Of a stretch of DNA of 64,000 nucleotides, positions 23,700 through 30,713 are shown one piece after another. This DNA comes from Oscillospiraceae bacterium. Its GTDB lineage: Bacteria; Bacillota; Clostridia; Oscillospirales; Ruminococcaceae. The stretch is from assembly GCA_009783695.1 (NCBI GenBank), contig WRCY01000001.1:62001-126000 (forward strand), read 5' to 3'. The position numbers and the translations under genes were made by a program. The notes beneath the pieces were generated by a model, which searched no databases, had not been told where the DNA came from, and saw only the letters and a program-made list of their open reading frames with translations. Positions within the stretch are counted from its first letter, which is position 1; the number at the start of each line of letters is the position of its first letter.

Positions 23700-24218
23700 T
23701 TAATAGAACCATAATCCCACAATCAGCCCGCTTAAAACCCATAATGTCACATCTCCCGCCAGCGCCGCCGGAAGAGCGTGGCGTGTCCTACGTACTTTCG
23801 TGGCGGCGAAGTAGACTGCGATTACATAAAACGTGGTTTCGCTGCTGCCGAGAATCACGCTTGCCACCCGCCCCGCAAAGCTGTCCGCGCCCGTTTGCCC
23901 CAGCACCGACTCGAAGATTGCAACCGAGCCGCTCCCCGAGAACGGGCGCATAATCACAAGCGGCGTCACCTCGCTCGGAAAGCCGAGAAAGTTCGTCACC
24001 GGCGAGAGCAGCGCCGATATAAGCGCTAGCCCGCCCGAGGCGCGGAACATTCCCACGGACAGCACGAGCGTGAACAGCGCGGGGAAAATATCATAAACCG
24101 TGTGCAGCCCCTCTTTTACGCCCTTTGTGAACTCGGCGAAGACGTCGGTTTTCCTGCACAGCGCATAAATTAGCACAAACACGAATATTACGGGAACTGC
24201 GAAATCGGAAACGCTCAC
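23700..24218 (-). CDS. spmB: spore maturation protein B
   Basis: Nucleoside-recognition (Gate) domain membrane protein needed for spore core dehydration together with SpmA. 172 residues from a GTG start at 24218, chosen because GAAGGTG stands five bases before it and the family begins with this FAVPVIFVFVLIYALC helix. FSGSGSVAIFE and LGSSETTFYVIAVYF are the family signatures. The GTG overlaps the stop codon of the downstream part of spmA (GTGA), so spmA and spmB were one translationally coupled unit before spmA was split. Confidence 0.92.
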   Translation of the reverse strand: MSVSDFAVPVIFVFVLIYALCRKTDVFAEFTKGVKEGLHTVYDIFPALFTLVLSVGMFRASGGLALISALLSPVTNFLGFPSEVTPLVIMRPFSGSGSVAIFESVLGQTGADSFAGRVASVILGSSETTFYVIAVYFAATKVRRTRHALPAALAGDVTLWVLSGLIVGLWFY

Positions 24219-24376
24219 TTCTGCACCTTCTTTCCCGCTAAAACTTTCGCCATTGTGACCGCAATAATAACCGCGGCAAGCGAGCAAATCCATACTGCAG
24301 GGAGGATTTCCATCGGCGCGGCGGAACCGTTTTTAAGGCGGATTGCTGCGGCTGTGGTGGGGATTAGCTGAAGACT
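24215..24376 (-). pseudogene. spmA: spmA, C-terminal part (split by the intervening element)
   Basis: Minus-strand reading from the core at 24375-24376 gives LQLIPTTAAAIRLKNGS, then a membrane helix (PAVWICSLAAVIIAVTMAKVL) and GKKVQK-stop. This is the last quarter of SpmA and has no start of its own. Joined to 30280-30713 it gives one open frame of 594 bases (198 codons), with NTASLQLIPTT across the junction. It is best seen as an interrupted gene and not a dead one, because both halves are undamaged. Confidence 0.9.
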
Positions 24377-24387
24377 GCCGCAACCAT
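24366..24387. other. left attachment site (attL)
   Basis: spmA C-terminal flank AGCTGAAGA, core CT at 24375-24376, then the inner arm GCCGCAACCAT. The arm is inverted with respect to the one at 30269-30279. Confidence 0.8.
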
Positions 24388-24430
24388 ACAAAGGGCAACT
24401 ATGGCAAGCTGCGCAGACATTGAAATAAAT

Positions 24431-24721
24431 TCAATATCTACGCTCGCCGCCGATAGCGGCGGACTGCGGTTTTGCCGCAGTCACAGCAATTCCATGTGAA
24501 ATGGAATTGCTATATTTAAGCTCAGCGATAATACTGTCTATAATAAACACCTTTTGTTCAGGAGCAGCGCCCGTCTCGTTCAGCCGCCTTTTAATGATTC
24601 CGGCATGAATTTTCGCGAGCTCGCCGCGGATTGCGCAGTAATTCCCGGCAGCAACCTTATGTACTGTTACCTGTTTAATTTTTGATTTTCGTTTACGCTG
24701 TGCGGGTTTACTCCGGCTCAT
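24431..24721 (-). CDS. small basic protein, candidate recombination directionality factor
   Basis: 96 residues from the ATG at 24721 (GAGAGGAG seven bases before it). N terminus is strongly basic (SRSKPAQRKRKSKIKQ), followed by a helical part (YCAIRGELAKIHAGIIKRRL). I do not recognise the family. It is the gene next to the left end of the element, opposite the recombinase. Small basic proteins in such a place can be directionality factors, but this is only an inference. The last 20 codons are made of hairpin-cluster repeat sequence, so the original C terminus may have been replaced. Confidence 0.55.
   Translation of the reverse strand: MSRSKPAQRKRKSKIKQVTVHKVAAGNYCAIRGELAKIHAGIIKRRLNETGAAPEQKVFIIDSIIAELKYSNSISHGIAVTAAKPQSAAIGGERRY
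24433..24515. repeat. hairpins inside the 3' end of the small basic ORF
   Basis: Three consecutive inverted repeats (CCGCC/GGCGG, GACTGCGG/CCGCAGTC, AGCAATTCCAT/ATGGAATTGCT) of the same style as the hairpin clusters at 22036, 28089, 40312 and 45249. Confidence 0.75.
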
Positions 24722-24791
24722 ATGCTGCTCCTCTCTGCGAACTTTGTTTGATACAAATGTTCTGTACATTATATACGGGCGGCGAAAATAT

Positions 24792-24846
24792 TATAATCAG
24801 TTAACTTTAAAAAAGCCTTAGCATTTTTTAAATTTATCGGCTATAT
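24792..24846. repeat. short hairpin-cluster copy
   Basis: TATAATCAGTTAACTTT at the left, AAAAAATGC/GCATTTTTT-like inner stem, and TTATCGGCTATA at the right. The ends match those of the longer copies at 28089 and 45249. Confidence 0.65.
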
Positions 24847-24864
24847 AAGCGCAAATATAAGCAA

Positions 24865-24905
24865 GAAAAATCAGCACGCCGTCTGCGTGCTGATTTTTCT
24901 TTTTA
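24865..24905. terminator. bidirectional terminator after the radical SAM gene
   Basis: AAAAATCAGCACGC and GCGTGCTGATTTTT form a 14-bp stem with a short loop and T-runs on both sides. Confidence 0.88.
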
Positions 24906-24911
24906 TTATAC

Positions 24912-25964
24912 TTACAGCATAAATGATTTATTATTACGCAGAGCGCACCCTCCGCCGCCCTCATGCAGAAGGTGACTCTCGCTTCTGATTCTTTGAAACA
25001 AAGGGGAAGAAAGCGAATCAATAAACGATGTCTGAATAACACTGCGGTCGGAAAAAGCTGCGAAAGGGCACGGCTCCAGCGCACCGGACGCACTGATGTG
25101 CGCAAACCCGCGCCCCGCCGCAAGGCAGCCGCCAAACTTTTCCTCATCGCCGGGAAACGGAATCAATATCATATTGTTATTCTTGGTTTCTGCCCGGCAA
25201 AACTGCTGCAGCGCCGACTTGCTTTCATCGGTAAGTATGCGCAGGGTGTCGTTTTCATCCACCGGAACATATTCCGTGTATATGACTAATCTGCAGCCGA
25301 GTTTTATATACGGGACTAAAAAATCACGAGCGGCTACTTCATTGATATTATGTTCACCCGTTGTTACAGATAAGCCGAAAGGGATTCTTCTTTCGGACAA
25401 TAGCAGCATCGCAGTTTTTACACGCTCCGCCACACCTTCTCCCCGGCGCTCGTTTGTTCTGCTTAAGCCGCCCTCAACGCTAATCACGGGGAGCATGCTG
25501 CGGTTAGCGGAAAACCAATCTGCCCGCGCTTCATCAAGGAGCGTACCGTTTGTGAACACCAACGCTAAAAGCTCCGGGCGTGAAGCTGCTGCCTCAAGCC
25601 AGTCGCCGCTCAGCAAAGGCTCGCCTCCCGCAAGCAGAATAATGGAGCATCCGGCTTGGACAGCCTGCTCAAGCAAGTTATCAATATGGGTTTTCGTCAT
25701 TTTGCTTTCAGTGCCGCGGCAATTCGCCCGTGAATAACACCCGGCGCAGTGAAGATTACATTCGTCGGTCGTGCTGACAATTAAGATAGGCGGCACGATT
25801 ACATCTTGTTTTTTCCATGCTTCCCTCTTTTTGGCGGCCTGCGGCAAATGCAGCAGTGTCTGCATAAGAGCGGTTCTGCTTTCGGGAAAACCGCGCAGCA
25901 TACTTACTCCTGTCTTAATAACAGATAATATGCTTTTATTAAATAATGATTCGTATGCTTTCAA
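24912..25964 (-). CDS. radical SAM protein with SPASM-like C terminus
   Basis: 350 residues. The [4Fe-4S] motif is CNLHCAGC (CxxxCxxC) at residues 68-75, followed by GGEPLL, the SAM-binding glycine motif. The C-terminal part holds further cysteines (GGCLAAGRGFAHISASG, EPCPF, GGGCALR) as in SPASM or twitch domains. No precursor peptide gene is obvious beside it. It lies 71 bases behind the ABC permease and ends at a terminator, so it is the last gene of that operon. The frame opens with TTG at 25964; an ATG five bases after AGGAGG is in another frame, so the true start is uncertain. Confidence 0.82.
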   Translation of the reverse strand: MKAYESLFNKSILSVIKTGVSMLRGFPESRTALMQTLLHLPQAAKKREAWKKQDVIVPPILIVSTTDECNLHCAGCYSRANCRGTESKMTKTHIDNLLEQAVQAGCSIILLAGGEPLLSGDWLEAAASRPELLALVFTNGTLLDEARADWFSANRSMLPVISVEGGLSRTNERRGEGVAERVKTAMLLLSERRIPFGLSVTTGEHNINEVAARDFLVPYIKLGCRLVIYTEYVPVDENDTLRILTDESKSALQQFCRAETKNNNMILIPFPGDEEKFGGCLAAGRGFAHISASGALEPCPFAAFSDRSVIQTSFIDSLSSPLFQRIRSESHLLHEGGGGCALRNNKSFML

Positions 25965-26035
25965 TCATTCCGTCCTCCTGTAAAATTATCTCTTTAATGT
26001 ATCTGTAAAACGTCTTAACTATTCGGCAGCTATTG

Positions 26036-26866
26036 TTATAATTCTAAGTAATCGTCTTTGCTGCGGTTCATTCTTGAAAAATCCACTTTCGAGAATACAA
26101 GCGTCGATAAGCCGATGAACACAGTACCGACCACTACCAGTACGATTAACGCCTGCACGGGCCCCATTGTTACCCGCCCTATTTCAAAAGCCAAATCCTC
26201 GGCGACAAGATCGGCTACGGGAGCGTCCAGCTTCTCCAGCGTAATCGTACGGAACAGCGAAACTACATAGGTCAGCGGGTTAAAGTACCCCACCCACCGA
26301 AGCGCACCCGGGAGCATCGAAAGCGGTATGTAAGCGCCCGACATGAACGTCATCGGCATGGTTATCGCGATGCTGACCGCTTGAAATGTCTGCGTATTTT
26401 TTGTCATGGTCGCAATCAGCAAGCCGAATCCCGCAAGCACTAACCCTATGAAAACCATGGCTATAAGCGCAAGGACAACCGTCACGGGCGAAGTGATTCT
26501 AAAACCGATGAAAAAGCCTACGCCGAAAATAATAACGCCCTGAACCGTCGCGACCGTTGCCGATGAAACGAACTGCCCAGCTGCGATGTTAAGCCGCGAA
26601 ATCGGCGAAACCAGCACTTCTTTCATGAAGCCGGAGGTCATGTCGTCAATCGTAGAGCTCGATACCCGGAAAGACGAGTCAAAGACGGTGGCGGCGATGA
26701 TTCCAGCGAGCATATAGCTCATCGGGTTTTCAATGAAGTCATTGCGGAAGATTTCCCCGAAGACGAAGATAAAAAAGAAAGGGAAAAGCAGATTAAAAAT
26801 AAGTGCGGGCTTATTGCGGATGAATGCCTTTAAATTACGGAGCCACAGCGCATGTATTACTCTCAT
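26036..26866 (-). CDS. ABC-2 type transporter permease
   Basis: 276 residues with six predicted membrane helices and the ABC-2 motif region MPMTFMSGAYIPLSMLPGALRWVGYFNPLTYVV (position 168 onward), typical of DrrB-like exporters. One-base stop/start overlap with the ATPase gene upstream. Substrate unknown; drug or peptide export is the common role of such pairs. Confidence 0.88.
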   Translation of the reverse strand: MRVIHALWLRNLKAFIRNKPALIFNLLFPFFFIFVFGEIFRNDFIENPMSYMLAGIIAATVFDSSFRVSSSTIDDMTSGFMKEVLVSPISRLNIAAGQFVSSATVATVQGVIIFGVGFFIGFRITSPVTVVLALIAMVFIGLVLAGFGLLIATMTKNTQTFQAVSIAITMPMTFMSGAYIPLSMLPGALRWVGYFNPLTYVVSLFRTITLEKLDAPVADLVAEDLAFEIGRVTMGPVQALIVLVVVGTVFIGLSTLVFSKVDFSRMNRSKDDYLEL

Positions 26867-27792
26867 TAATTCTCTCCTCCTTCCCTGATTTCGCGTCCCG
26901 TGATTTCCAAAAACACATCGTTGAGCGTGCCTTTTCGTATTTCAATGTCGGTGATGTCATTTCTACATTCGGATAATATATGTAGCAGCTCCGCGTTGTT
27001 TTCAACGTCAATCCGATGATATTTTTCTTTCACGGAATAGTTGATTTTTTGCGCGTTTAAAAGCTTCTCGAGCGCCCCGGGATTGGCTGTTGTGATATAA
27101 GCGCGGTCTTTTGTGTATTGCTTTTTCAAGTTGAACGGCGTGTCGTGTGCGATGATTTTTCCGTGGTCGATTACCGCAACCTTACTGCAGATTTCCGCTT
27201 CATCCATATAGTGCGTCGTCAGAAAAATCGTGATGTTTTTCTCCTTTTGCAGACGCAGCACATACTCCCACACATGGGCGCGGGTCTGCGGGTCCAGGCC
27301 TGTCGTCGGCTCGTCCAGGAACAATACCTTCGGGTAGTGAATCAAGCCTCTTGCGATTTCAACCCTGCGTTTCATGCCGCCGGACAAAGCTGCGACAGTT
27401 TTCTTTCGCACGTCAAGCAAATCCACCAGGGTCAGTACGAACTTTATGCGCTCATCGACTTCATTTTTCGGTACTTTGTAAAATACGCAGTGCATTTTCA
27501 AATTTTCTTCTATAGTCATTTTTTTGTCAAGCGTGCTGTCTTGAAAAACTACGCCGATTGCCTTGCGCACATCGGCTTTTTGCGTGGAAACATCTTTGCC
27601 GTCTATAAATAATTCGCCCTCGGTCTTATCAAAAATCGTAACAAGAGTATTAATCGTAGTGGATTTTCCCGCTCCGTTAGGCCCGAGAAAAGCAAAGATA
27701 CTGCCCTGCTCCACTTCAAAGCTGATGTTATTCACCGCCGTAAAGCCGCCGTATTTCTTCGTAAAGTTTTTTACCTTAATGATAGAATCCAT
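26866..27792 (-). CDS. ABC transporter ATP-binding protein, DrrA-like
   Basis: 308 residues. Walker A is GPNGAGKSTT, the signature is ALSGGMKRRVEIARGL, Walker B is VLFLDEPTTGLDP, and the H-loop is TTHYMDEAE. A C-terminal domain of about 80 residues ends the protein as in DrrA-type exporters. Start at ATG 27792; the open frame upstream (VQKGHDEN) is leader repeat. Three tandem leader copies stand in front. Confidence 0.92.
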   Translation of the reverse strand: MDSIIKVKNFTKKYGGFTAVNNISFEVEQGSIFAFLGPNGAGKSTTINTLVTIFDKTEGELFIDGKDVSTQKADVRKAIGVVFQDSTLDKKMTIEENLKMHCVFYKVPKNEVDERIKFVLTLVDLLDVRKKTVAALSGGMKRRVEIARGLIHYPKVLFLDEPTTGLDPQTRAHVWEYVLRLQKEKNITIFLTTHYMDEAEICSKVAVIDHGKIIAHDTPFNLKKQYTKDRAYITTANPGALEKLLNAQKINYSVKEKYHRIDVENNAELLHILSECRNDITDIEIRKGTLNDVFLEITGREIREGGEN

Positions 27793-28030
27793 ATTTTCAT
27801 CATGTCCTTTCTGTACCAACGTGGAATGAAGAGTTTCGTTTTCCCCGGTTTATTCCTGTTTGTTCCATTCTTTTTTCATCATGTCCTTTCTGCACCGGCG
27901 CGAAATGAAGAGCTTCGTTTTCCCCGATTTATTCCTGTTTGTTCCATCCTTTTTTCATCATGTCCTTTCTGCACCGGCACGAAATGAAGAGCTTCGTTTT
28001 CCACGGTTTATTCCTGTTCGTTCCAACCTT
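27793..28030 (-). repeat. three tandem 79-bp leader copies before the ABC ATPase
   Basis: CATGTCCTTTCTG (plus strand) at 27801, 27880 and 27959, exact period 79. Each copy has the full set: core CGGGGAAAACG, stem, AAAGGACATGATGAAAA. The two distal copies therefore each present a ribosome binding site and ATG without a gene behind them. Confidence 0.92.
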
Positions 28031-28088
28031 ATCTCTCCTGTTTATGTCATATAAAGCTTAATGCTCATGACAGCGTAATGTTCGCTAA

Positions 28089-28261
28089 TATAATCAGTTA
28101 ACTTAATAAAATGCCATAGCATCTTTTAAGTTGTGGCATTTGCCGCATTGCCGCTGTACAGCTTTACTTGATTGCGCAGCCGATAACCCGCCACTGGAGT
28201 AAAAGCAAGCATATCTTGCTTTTAAAAACGCGGAGCGTTTTTAAAGTTAATTGAATATATA
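28089..28261 (-). repeat. hairpin-cluster leader before the ABC operon
   Basis: Ends are inverted (TATAATCAGTTAACTT left, AAGTTAATTGAATATA right). Inside lie several stems, for example AAAAGCAAG/CTTGCTTTT and AAAAACGC/GCGTTTTT. The cluster starts at the predicted transcription start of the promoter at 28266-28294. Confidence 0.82.
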
Positions 28262-28265
28262 ACAC

Positions 28266-28294
28266 AGTATAGCATAAAACGGGGCAAAATGCAA
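28266..28294 (-). promoter_or_regulatory. sigma-A-type promoter of the ABC-radical SAM operon
   Basis: TTGCAT (28289-28294), 17-base spacer ending TTATGC, and TATACT (28266-28271) on the minus strand. The same -35, spacer length, spacer end and -10 occur at 45434-45462. Confidence 0.85.
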
Positions 28295-28312
28295 ACATTG
28301 TTTTAAAAATTA

Positions 28313-28441
28313 TTATTTAAGCGTATGCCCGCATGCAAAACCCCGCCGGCTGCGGCCCAAATCATAACTCATTTGATATTCCGAAACGCCTTTAAGCACC
28401 CGCAGTTCTGTAATACGTTCACGTATAAAAACCTCACTCAT
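28313..28441 (-). pseudogene. truncated XRE-family regulator
   Basis: 42 codons from the ATG at 28441 (AGAGG seven bases before it). It begins MSEVFIRERITELRVLKGVSE, then YQMSYDLGRSR, the first two helices of a Firmicute XRE helix-turn-helix family, then derails and stops. The recognition helix and the rest are missing. It is divergent from the recombinase gene, the usual place of a repressor for it. It was not long enough for an ORF list. Confidence 0.65.
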
Positions 28442-28629
28442 ATAATAACCTCTTTTTTAATAAACTGTAATATATCTGAAGCGATTATTCTTTATTTATC
28501 TGCTGTATTTTTTTATAATTATATAATATTTTACATTAAATTGAAAATAATTCTTATAGATATTCGTCGTAATGTTTTGTATATTTGTTTATAAATTAAT
28601 AACTGTATTCAAGGAGAGGTGACTATGGC
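28442..28629. other. AT-rich region upstream of the recombinase gene
   Basis: 188 bases without a coding sequence. Very AT-rich; several weak -10-like words but no promoter I can defend, neither sigma-A nor sporulation type. Confidence 0.6.
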
Positions 28630-30276
28630 ATGAAATTCGCAATTTACAGCCGAAAATCCGTGCACACCGCCAAAGGCGACTCAATCGACAACCAGATTCT
28701 CGAATGTAAAAAGAGAATTTTCATGCAATTCCCCGACACTTCCGGCAGCGATACAATTATTTATGCCGACGAGGGGTATTCCGCGAAGAACACCGAACGC
28801 CCGGAGTTTCAAAAAATGCTCGCTGCTATTCGCGAAAAGCAAATCGGCGGGGTCGTCTGCTACCGACTTGACAGACTGAGCCGCAGCGTCGGCGACTTCG
28901 CGAACCTAATTGATGAATTGAACAGTCTTGACGTAATATTTATCAGCGTAAGCGAAAATTTCGACACCTCCTCGCCGATGGGGCGGGCGATGATGAGCAT
29001 AGCCTCCGTGTTCGCGCAGCTTGAACGCGAAACCATCGCCGAGCGCGTCCGCGACAATATGCACGCGCTTGCACGCAAAGGTCAGTGGCTCGGAGGAACG
29101 CCGCCGCTCGGCTTTATAACCGAGAAACTCGAGAAAATGATAATAGACGGGAAAACTAAAACCACCTATAAACTTAAACTTAACCCCGATGAAATAAATA
29201 CAGTTGAGATTATTTTTGAGAAGTTTCTCGAATTAAAATCATTAAGCAGCGTAAGCAGACATTTAATTGCCCAGGATATAAAATCACGCAGCGGCAAGAT
29301 GTTTTCACTCCTCGGAATCAAGGAAATTCTGCAAAATCCGGTTTACTGCGCCGCCGATATGCATGCTCTTGCATATTTTACCGGGCATGACGCAGATGTC
29401 TGCTTTGAAGAAAAGGATTGCACGGGTGAATTCGGGCTACTCGCCTACAACAAGCGCGACCACCACAAAAAGAATATCCCCCGGAACACGATTGACAAAT
29501 GGATTGTCGCTGCCGGGAAGCACGCCGGCGTTGTGAGCGGGGAAGACTGGGTTGCTGTGCAGAAGCTCCTTGAAGCAAATAAATTAACAGACGGCCGCCG
29601 TGAGGACAAGCCGCCTGCTCCCGCACATAACGGCTACGCCCTGCTCTCGGGAATGATTCGCTGTAATATATGCAACTCACGGATGTTTGCCAAGCACCGC
29701 TACAAAAAGAACAATCCCGCACTGTTCGACTACGTGTGCAGCAATAAAATCCGGGGCAGCAGGAAGCTCTGCGGCAGCGAAAATATAAGCGGGCAGGAAG
29801 CCGACGGCGTCATCTGCGAATATCTTGCGCAGGAGCTTGACAGCAGGCCGGACATTCATACATACCTTGACAAACTCAAAAAGGAAGCCGGCGGGAATAA
29901 ACACGAAAACCCGCTCAATATTATAAGCAAACGGATTAAACAGAAACAATCGGAAAAAAAGAGCCTGCTGCAGGCTTTGAAGCTTGGGGCAGGCGAGGTT
30001 CTCATTAAACAAATCAACGAAGAAGCTGCTATAATTGACAAAGAGCTAAAAGCCCTTGAAGCCGAACGGATTCGCCTTGTAAAAAAAATGAGCGCTCTCA
30101 ATAGCGAAGAGCTGCGAACCGAGCTGATTGCGAAAACATTGGCGGACTTGAAAAAAATTTTCAGCAACCTTTCAATTCATGAAAAACGCACTATAATCCG
30201 GCTGTTGGTCAAAGAAATCGTCTGGGACGGAGAAAGCTTTGATATTTTCATATACAGTTGCTCTCACGATGGTTGA
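28630..30276 (+). CDS. large serine recombinase
   Basis: 548-residue site-specific recombinase. N-terminal resolvase domain with the nucleophile in YSRKS (Ser8), RLDRLSRS, and the helix after SMASVFAQLERE-type sequence (SIASVFAQLERETIAERV). Recombinase domain with GTPPLGF. Zinc ribbon with CNICNSRMF and later Cys residues (about 343-385). Coiled coil in the last 120 residues. It starts with ATG 28630; an earlier ATG at 28625 opens the mini-ORF M-A-stop that overlaps this start. The stop codon lies inside the right attachment arm, four bases from the core. It is the likely enzyme for excising the element from spmA. Confidence 0.95.
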   Translation: MKFAIYSRKSVHTAKGDSIDNQILECKKRIFMQFPDTSGSDTIIYADEGYSAKNTERPEFQKMLAAIREKQIGGVVCYRLDRLSRSVGDFANLIDELNSLDVIFISVSENFDTSSPMGRAMMSIASVFAQLERETIAERVRDNMHALARKGQWLGGTPPLGFITEKLEKMIIDGKTKTTYKLKLNPDEINTVEIIFEKFLELKSLSSVSRHLIAQDIKSRSGKMFSLLGIKEILQNPVYCAADMHALAYFTGHDADVCFEEKDCTGEFGLLAYNKRDHHKKNIPRNTIDKWIVAAGKHAGVVSGEDWVAVQKLLEANKLTDGRREDKPPAPAHNGYALLSGMIRCNICNSRMFAKHRYKKNNPALFDYVCSNKIRGSRKLCGSENISGQEADGVICEYLAQELDSRPDIHTYLDKLKKEAGGNKHENPLNIISKRIKQKQSEKKSLLQALKLGAGEVLIKQINEEAAIIDKELKALEAERIRLVKKMSALNSEELRTELIAKTLADLKKIFSNLSIHEKRTIIRLLVKEIVWDGESFDIFIYSCSHDG

Positions 30277-30713
30277 GGTCTGGCCGTATTCAGTACCACA
30301 AAAATAACCATGTTGTTTGTCGCGCGCTCGGGATTAAGCGGGTCGCTTTCCTCCTTTTCAAGCTCGCGCATAGCCGCAATCCCGAACGGCGTTGAAGCGT
30401 TTCCGAGCCCGAGCAGGTTTGCCGTGATGTTGAGGACTATGTAGCCGATTGCCTTGCCGTTCGGATTTATACCCTTGAAAAGCCTTATGAGCAACGGCTT
30501 AAACGCTTTCGCAAGTAAATCAACGAGCCCCGCCGTCTGCGCTACGCGCATAATCCCGCTCCACAGGCAAATCACCCCGCATAGCGTCAGGCAGAGCGTT
30601 ATAGCGCTTTGTACCTCCGAAAGCGCGGCATCGGACACCGCCGCGACATCGCCGTTTACAATACCGAAAACAAGCGACAAGAATATAAGTCCTGCGAAAA
30701 CCCATTTCATCAT
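30264..30713 (-). pseudogene. spmA: spmA, N-terminal part (split by the intervening element)
   Basis: SpmA residues 1 to about 145: MMKWVFAGLIFLSLVFGIVNGD, GVICLWSGIMRVAQTAGL, ITANLLGLGNASTPFGI and NMVIFVVLNTA are the spore maturation protein A pattern. Genuine spmA sequence ends at the core (30280-30281); the last six codons (to stop 30264) are read from the element. GGGGAGG lies before the ATG pair at 30708-30713. SpmA is a membrane protein of the mother-cell programme that works with SpmB in spore core dehydration. The C-terminal part is at 24215-24376. Confidence 0.92.
30269..30290. other. right attachment site (attR)
   Basis: Inner arm ATGGTTGAGGT (30269-30279), core CT at 30280-30281, then spmA flank GGCCGTATT. 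The inner arm includes the recombinase stop codon. Confidence 0.8.

Follow-up and report, generated by a model that had tools for sequence, protein, structure and literature searches.

A 5.9-kb serine-recombinase element splits spmA in an Oscillospiraceae bacterium and is a candidate for excision during sporulation

Excisable elements have been reported to split the spore genes sigK, spsM, spoVFB, spoVR, gerE and yabG (PMC5595907, PMC10747680, PMC5025042). Here, we describe a 5,905-bp element that cuts the minus-strand spore maturation gene spmA into two parts within a 64,000-nt stretch of an Oscillospiraceae bacterium genome (contig WRCY01000001.1, positions 62,001 to 126,000; hereafter, the window) and that is a candidate for excision in development. 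Among the closest known counterparts is skin in sigK of Bacillus subtilis and Clostridioides difficile, which, like the spmA element, interrupts the coding sequence of a spore gene of the mother cell, carries its own serine recombinase and restores the gene when the ends are rejoined. In skin of B. subtilis and in yin, the recombinase gene follows the 5′ portion of the interrupted gene, as it does here (a comparison of position, not of orientation; PMC10747680). The spmA element differs from skin in its target, in its length of 5.9 kb, in having no recognized phage genes and in that its excision is predicted.

Other described elements share some of these features. Specifically, gin in gerE is likewise a non-phage element in a spore gene, but it spans 28.6 kb, encodes three recombinases and has a 9-bp overlap (PMC5595907), whereas the spmA element has one recombinase and a 2-bp core. 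Similarly, yin has a clostridial spore-gene target, yabG, but is prophage-like, and yabG is controlled by sigma-K (PMC10747680). In comparison, the spmA-spmB operon depends on the mother-cell factor sigma-E in C. difficile (PMC3789822), and in B. subtilis dacB-spmAB belongs to the genes under sigma-E control (PMC517825). The literature retrieved with spmA as a search term contained no report of spmA split by an element (among the matches listed, with most subscription journals outside reach), in line with the remark in the initial annotation of the window that spmA is not known to have been described as such a target, and spmA is absent from the main text of a survey of serine recombinases and their targets (PMC10083194). 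As far as this literature goes, spmA would be a new target for a serine-recombinase element.

The initial annotation had placed the two spmA parts on either side of a 5,905-bp segment, and its coordinates and arithmetic hold (Table 1). Removal of positions 24375-30279, or equally of 24377-30281, leaves one 594-base frame (197 codons and a stop) that reads NTASLQLIPTT across the join, just as had been claimed, and the expected coupling to spmB is visible as GTGA at 24215-24218, where the spmA stop overlaps the GTG start of spmB. Because many neighboring cut points also yield an open frame, the open join alone is weak evidence. The split goes beyond chance since SpmA of relatives crosses the junction position without an indel there, the ends of the element are paired and the same site is occupied in a second genome (see below). 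The Gate domain PF07670 was recognized in the open frame of the 5′ part (E = 1.5e-10) and more strongly in the joined protein (E = 3.3e-12), and a search of the whole host genome for SpmA at E ≤ 0.001 returned only two matches, both of them pieces (query residues 1-147 and 143-197). A comparison of the joined 197-residue protein with SpmA, proposed at the outset as a check, gave 85% identity over 98-100% of the length to P0002 and P0003, which their sources name as spore maturation protein A of Oscillospiraceae bacterium (among the matches listed). The intact copies that had been sought in relatives are present as well, spmA being whole in close relatives, and spmB shows 77-92% identity to the corresponding protein of the seven nearest relatives.

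The ends of the element have the anatomy of attachment (att) sites. The rebuilt circle junction, written in the spmA sense, is AGTTGCCCTTTGTATGGTTGCGGC-AG-ACCTCAACCATCGTGAGAGCAACT, a 24 + 2 + 24 inverted repeat about AG with 17 of 24 positions paired, which is the form of a large-serine-integrase attP, an inverted repeat with a 2-bp core. Pairs of window segments drawn at random reached ≥17 in 4 of 500,000 trials (0 in an earlier 200,000), and the chromosomal halves (attB) pair weakly, at 6 of 18 positions in the window and 10 of 18 in the second genome. Recombination between this att pair would restore the spmA frame. The element-encoded large serine recombinase, which had been said to read toward one end, has three recognized domains, is convergent with the spmA 5′ part and has a stop codon that ends 3 bp before the CT. 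Its serine at residue 10 (YSRKS) equals, by residue number alone, the catalytic serine 10 of CD1231, whose S10A form is inactive (PMC5025042). On the sequence, we regard the split of spmA and its att anatomy as firm.

Table 1. Features of the split spmA locus, in window coordinates
Feature	Position	Strand	Remarks
spmB, uninterrupted	23700..24218	-	directly downstream of spmA; PF07670 E 4.8e-9
spmA 3′ part	24215..24374	-	160 bases; rest of codon 145 to stop
Intervening element	24375..30279 (equally 24377-30281)		5,905 bp; CT common to both ends
Crossover dinucleotide CT, first copy	24375..24376		AG in spmA sense
attP half-site, distal end	24377..24400	-	minus strand AGTTGCCCTTTGTATGGTTGCGGC; inverted-repeat partner of 30256-30279; 21/24 identical in G017
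ORF96, K/R-rich small protein	24431..24721	-	candidate recombination directionality factor; 30 bp from distal att half-site
Cargo: radical SAM protein	24912..25964	-	PF04055 E 2.5e-12; best NCBIfam match far under cut-off
Cargo: ABC-2 type permease	26036..26866	-	PF01061 E 4.4e-32
Cargo: ABC transporter ATPase	26866..27819	-	PF00005 E 2.7e-37, PF13732 E 8.7e-8
Large serine recombinase	28630..30276	+	548 amino acids; Resolvase PF00239 E 5.7e-36, Recombinase PF07508 E 2.8e-18, zinc ribbon PF13408 E 6.8e-9
attP half-site, recombinase end	30256..30279	+	AGTTGCTCTCACGATGGTTGAGGT; overlaps recombinase gene end
Crossover dinucleotide CT, second copy	30280..30281		AG in spmA sense
spmA 5′ part	30280..30713	-	434 bases; covers codons 1-144 plus two bases of codon 145; start codon ATG at 30713

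We surveyed 71 genomes of the genus and found SpmA matches in 63, with a split gene in two, the host (G000) and G017. In G017, the N-terminal part (78% identical) lies on contig C92 beside a 72%-identical recombinase and the C-terminal part lies on contig C70, the cut falling at the same codon; the core is again AG, the element has an attP repeat of its own (16/24), and the joined spmA frame is open. The fit of the ends suggests that C92 and C70 carry the ends of one element. Its cargo differs from that of the host element, with a repeat-rich open reading frame (ORF) on C92 and, on C70, a small protein resembling helix-turn-helix proteins and two further ORFs that by eye resemble a MazE/MazF pair. 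A third case is P0052, a protein of 156 amino acids from another source (86% identity over 74% of the query, among the 120 of 6,065 proteins listed). At the protein level, it follows SpmA through NTAS and leaves it at the same residue into an attP-like tail, SPPPLLGQLL, close to the tail PPPLLEQL of G017. Other apparent splits were set aside, as the match in G051 (query residues 1-150) stops at a contig end, that in G025 begins at a contig start, and that in G070 is one frame found in two overlapping matches.

In a tree of SpmA plus SpmB (30 rows, with joined sequences for the two split genes), the host groups with the unsplit G012 and G023 (94/89) and G017 with the unsplit G020 (84/82), and in the recombinase tree the two spmA recombinases form one clade (100/100). 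Both two insertions by related recombinases and one old insertion with several precise losses would fit. The nonsynonymous divergence (dN) of the split spmA from G012 and G023 is 0.082 and 0.083, compared with 0.077 between those two unsplit genes, and in both halves dN is far below the synonymous divergence (dS), which is high and saturated in some pairs. Because dS is near saturation in many pairs, dN/dS serves as a coarse check only. Decayed halves in relatives had been named at the outset as a sign that would speak against the skin-type interpretation; neither half holds a stop or frameshift in G000 or G017, and both are open and constrained like intact spmA.

The recombinase relatives within the genus, counted at E ≤ 1e-100 with weaker matches outside the count, occupy ten loci in nine genomes (host locus included), all in or beside spore genes: two in spmA and eight at dpaB (spoVFB). 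At each of the eight dpaB loci, the recombinase lies within 160 bp of a C-terminal DpaB piece (NCBIfam scans additionally covered two of these loci). Among the 57 genomes with a DpaB match, 49 have a contiguous gene, and the eight recombinase genomes have it in pieces; the C-terminal piece alone was found in G065, G022 and G023, and the N-terminal piece of G017 is on the opposite strand of its contig. These loci, where family recombinases 36-42% identical adjoin dpaB pieces in eight genomes including G017, recall the spoVFB elements reported to excise during sporulation (PMC5025042) and the vfbin element (PMC10747680). They differ from the spmA element in their target and in their separate recombinase clade, which is defined here by the dpaB recombinases of the genus.

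Outside the genus, 11 related loci were collected, from genome contigs (L040-L046), from a set of 394 genomes in the order (L108-L110, at E ≤ 1e-140) and from viral contigs (L111). Nine of them adjoin feoB, specifically its C-terminal part (L040-L044, L046, L108 and L110) or, reversed, its N-terminal part (L111), as read from translations; L045 breaks off at the end of its contig, and no target is visible for L109. At L042, both feoB parts flank a 4.7-kb element that contains dehydrogenase-like and malic-enzyme-like ORFs (by eye), and the feoB piece that was scanned matches TIGR00437 below the cut-off. The feoB elements carry the closest recombinases outside the genus, and the attP half-sites of L042 and of the spmA element agree at 13-19 of 24 positions; the feoB elements differ from the spmA element in their iron-transport target and, at L042, in a TT core placed by eye. 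All nine feoB elements sit near CNGRFPTLI codons. The L043 element is on a contig filed as a Melainabacteria metagenome-assembled genome, through either cross-phylum transfer or misbinning. In the recombinase tree, the spmA clade groups with the feoB recombinases (100/100) and is separate from that of dpaB (100/100); its precise position depends on forks of 80-90, and long branches are flagged. One recombinase family occupies feoB, spmA and dpaB, and with feoB as the target of its sister recombinases it is not tied to spore genes.

In C. difficile, it is the directionality factor CD1234, not the recombinase, that restricts excision to the mother cell (PMC5025042). We propose ORF96 as a candidate directionality factor from its position and recurrence. 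A relative lies at the same end of the L042 feoB element (L042:5131-5337, E = 3e-8), and another adjoins a further recombinase of the family (L109, E = 1.9e-10). The three sequences share 13 invariant columns, and an AlphaFold model of ORF96 based on them has two helices, predicted with moderate confidence (mean pLDDT 67.5, pTM 0.41). In a set of 5.8 billion proteins, ORF96 matched nothing but itself; its relatives turned up only in the DNA of related loci.

The host genome contains ten PF07508 genes, and we inspected the nine besides the one in spmA; that on contig C84 lies at a contig end and cannot be judged. At C18:3-1284, the N-terminal part of host sigK (TIGR02846) comes after a recombinase frame truncated by the contig start (L066, L089, L090; L117), and the C-terminal part is at C38:12145-12450 (profile positions 130-226). 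The N-terminal part agrees with the unsplit SigK of G045 up to CID and continues as KCILTA, a tail that G023 shares beside its own recombinase. On C55, a recombinase is followed by the C-terminal part of a protein with peptidoglycan (PG)-binding repeats and a short SpoIID/LytB match (L063:2407-4996; L104; L106; L099), whose best NCBIfam match is a spore cortex-lytic enzyme, far below the cut-off and mostly via the PG-binding part. Its N-terminal part was not found; similarity to the cortex-lytic-like gene is present in a frame close to the C7 recombinase, which is, however, a different sequence from the missing part. At E ≤ 1e-20, the gene is found in 7 of the 71 genomes; G045, G017 and G020 have it as a single frame, whereas in G023 and G053 it is interrupted next to recombinases. 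Because it is present in so few, its role in sporulation is uncertain. Host spoIVA is also in two pieces (C23:95-811 and C13:46049-46828; L112, L113) that have a 23-bp stretch in common; no recombinase was seen beside these pieces, both of which are near contig ends. In G023, spoIVA is cut by ~17 kb including a recombinase-like frame, and the N-terminal part in G053 abuts such a frame (by eye; L115, L116). The spoIVA family cut-off is exceeded in 53 of the 71 genomes, the cut G053 copy included. Overall, two of the ten host recombinases (spmA and sigK), or three with the possible cortex-lytic gene, lie beside spore genes; if 5% of genes are assumed to be spore genes, the chance of this is 0.086 or 0.012, respectively, which is not strong alone.

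As an explanation, we propose that an element that encodes a large serine recombinase and has no recognized phage genes has integrated at an att site inside spmA. The recombinase, likely with ORF96 as its directionality factor, would excise the element precisely in the sporulating mother cell and thereby rejoin spmA, and the element would persist because excision affects only the mother cell, which dies, whereas the line passing through the forespore retains it. We infer that the recombinase is active and that excision is confined to sporulation. Developmental excision that restores spmA is the most likely reading because of the target, the pattern across the genus and the constraint on the halves, and we favor it with measured confidence. 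The claim of a skin-type element made at the outset therefore stands in part: the split with its att sites, the open halves, the unsplit copies in relatives, the spore-gene loci of the genus and the cut in sigK support it, and the insertion of sister recombinases into feoB speaks against a family dedicated to sporulation. Excision, its timing and a lack of SpmA in unexcised cells are predictions.

Several observations weigh against developmental excision. The closest sister recombinases have a vegetative iron-transport gene, feoB, as their target; low dN/dS would likewise be expected if the insertion were recent; and no ORF96 relative was found at the distal end of the G017 element. A stop lies inside four dpaB pieces (the N-terminal piece of G017 and the C-terminal pieces of G033, G058 and G023), which may reflect att-derived ends or decay. 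Approximately 20 SigK residues, from CID to EPID, are missing from both host pieces, so the pieces do not join exactly and the host gene is an imperfect example; the gap may have arisen through a second insertion or through damage. Finally, we scanned nine upstream regions for sigma-E-like promoters using a sigma-E consensus and 60 shuffles of each region, and no conspicuous site preceded the recombinase, for which 38 of 60 shuffles scored equally well, or ORF96, for which 19 of 60 did. Shuffles matched the scores of seven of the nine regions in 9 to 47 of 60 cases; the region upstream of spmA was matched by 6 of 60 in G000 and 1 of 60 in G023. These two spmA upstream regions have GAATATA-N12-CATAAAAT in common, which we did not use as promoter evidence because it also precedes a divergent gene in G000.

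The strongest alternative is an ordinary mobile element that uses conserved coding sites as attB and moves at a low rate in any cell type, so that the spores of carriers would be without SpmA. A spore gene is not needed by such an element, as the sister-group recombinases at feoB in 9 of the 11 out-of-genus loci illustrate, and the SpmA plus SpmB tree, which separates G000 from G017 and places each nearest unsplit genomes, has the form expected under repeated gain or loss; the unlike cargo of the two spmA elements also fits. However, all ten loci of the genus at E ≤ 1e-100 are in spore genes, the lineage has additional interrupted spore genes and neither spmA half has decayed, and we consider this alternative unlikely, if far from negligible. 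Alternatively, sporulation may be in the course of being lost in the lineage, with elements piling up in genes that are no longer needed, spmA included. The fragmentation of spmA, sigK and spoIVA in the host, the inexact join of its sigK pieces and the stops in some dpaB pieces of relatives could be understood in this way, but both spmA halves are open and constrained, the host genes of the spo0A type, dpaB, ytfJ and spmB are uninterrupted and, where junctions are visible, spmA and the sigK N-terminal part are cut by insertions beside recombinases while close relatives are unsplit, which makes such a loss improbable. An assembly artefact or strain mixture in the metagenome bin could be suspected in a host genome of 97 contigs, but the element lies inside a 160-kb contig and ends in paired att half-sites, and the independent genome G017 has the same arrangement, so that we give this explanation almost no weight.

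If developmental excision is true, spmA, which is under sigma-E control and serves to dehydrate the spore core and make the spore heat resistant, joins the short list of spore genes split by excisable elements. Its element is small, its att pair is complete and a directionality factor can be proposed for it. A broader and more tentative proposal, which we regard as possible without favoring it, is that the sporulation program of this lineage is fragmented: site-specific elements would split four or more spore genes (spmA, sigK, spoIVA and dpaB, and perhaps the cortex-lytic one) in combinations that vary between species, spore formation would need several programmed excisions, and spmA would be gated from the sigma-E stage by its own recombinase lineage. 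In a lineage with several spore genes split at once, the coordination of multiple programmed excisions in one cell becomes testable.

Regarding the remaining content of the element, its scanned ORFs had no match to phage structural or replication genes in Pfam and NCBIfam (PHROGs not searched), the ORF96 frame having no match at all there, and the element does not qualify as a prophage; the best phage record is 39% identical over 99% of the recombinase. The cargo consists of a radical S-adenosylmethionine (SAM) protein and an ATP-binding cassette (ABC) transporter (Table 1). Three tandem 79-bp repeats, 86-90% alike, lie at the start of the ABC ATPase gene (window 27794-28030). Furthermore, a 25-bp sequence occurs at 24792-24816, 28086-28111 and 28235-28259, with inverted copies flanking the radical SAM/ABC cargo and an additional copy in direct orientation, a layout that would fit arrival of the cargo with an end like that of a miniature inverted-repeat transposable element or a transposon.

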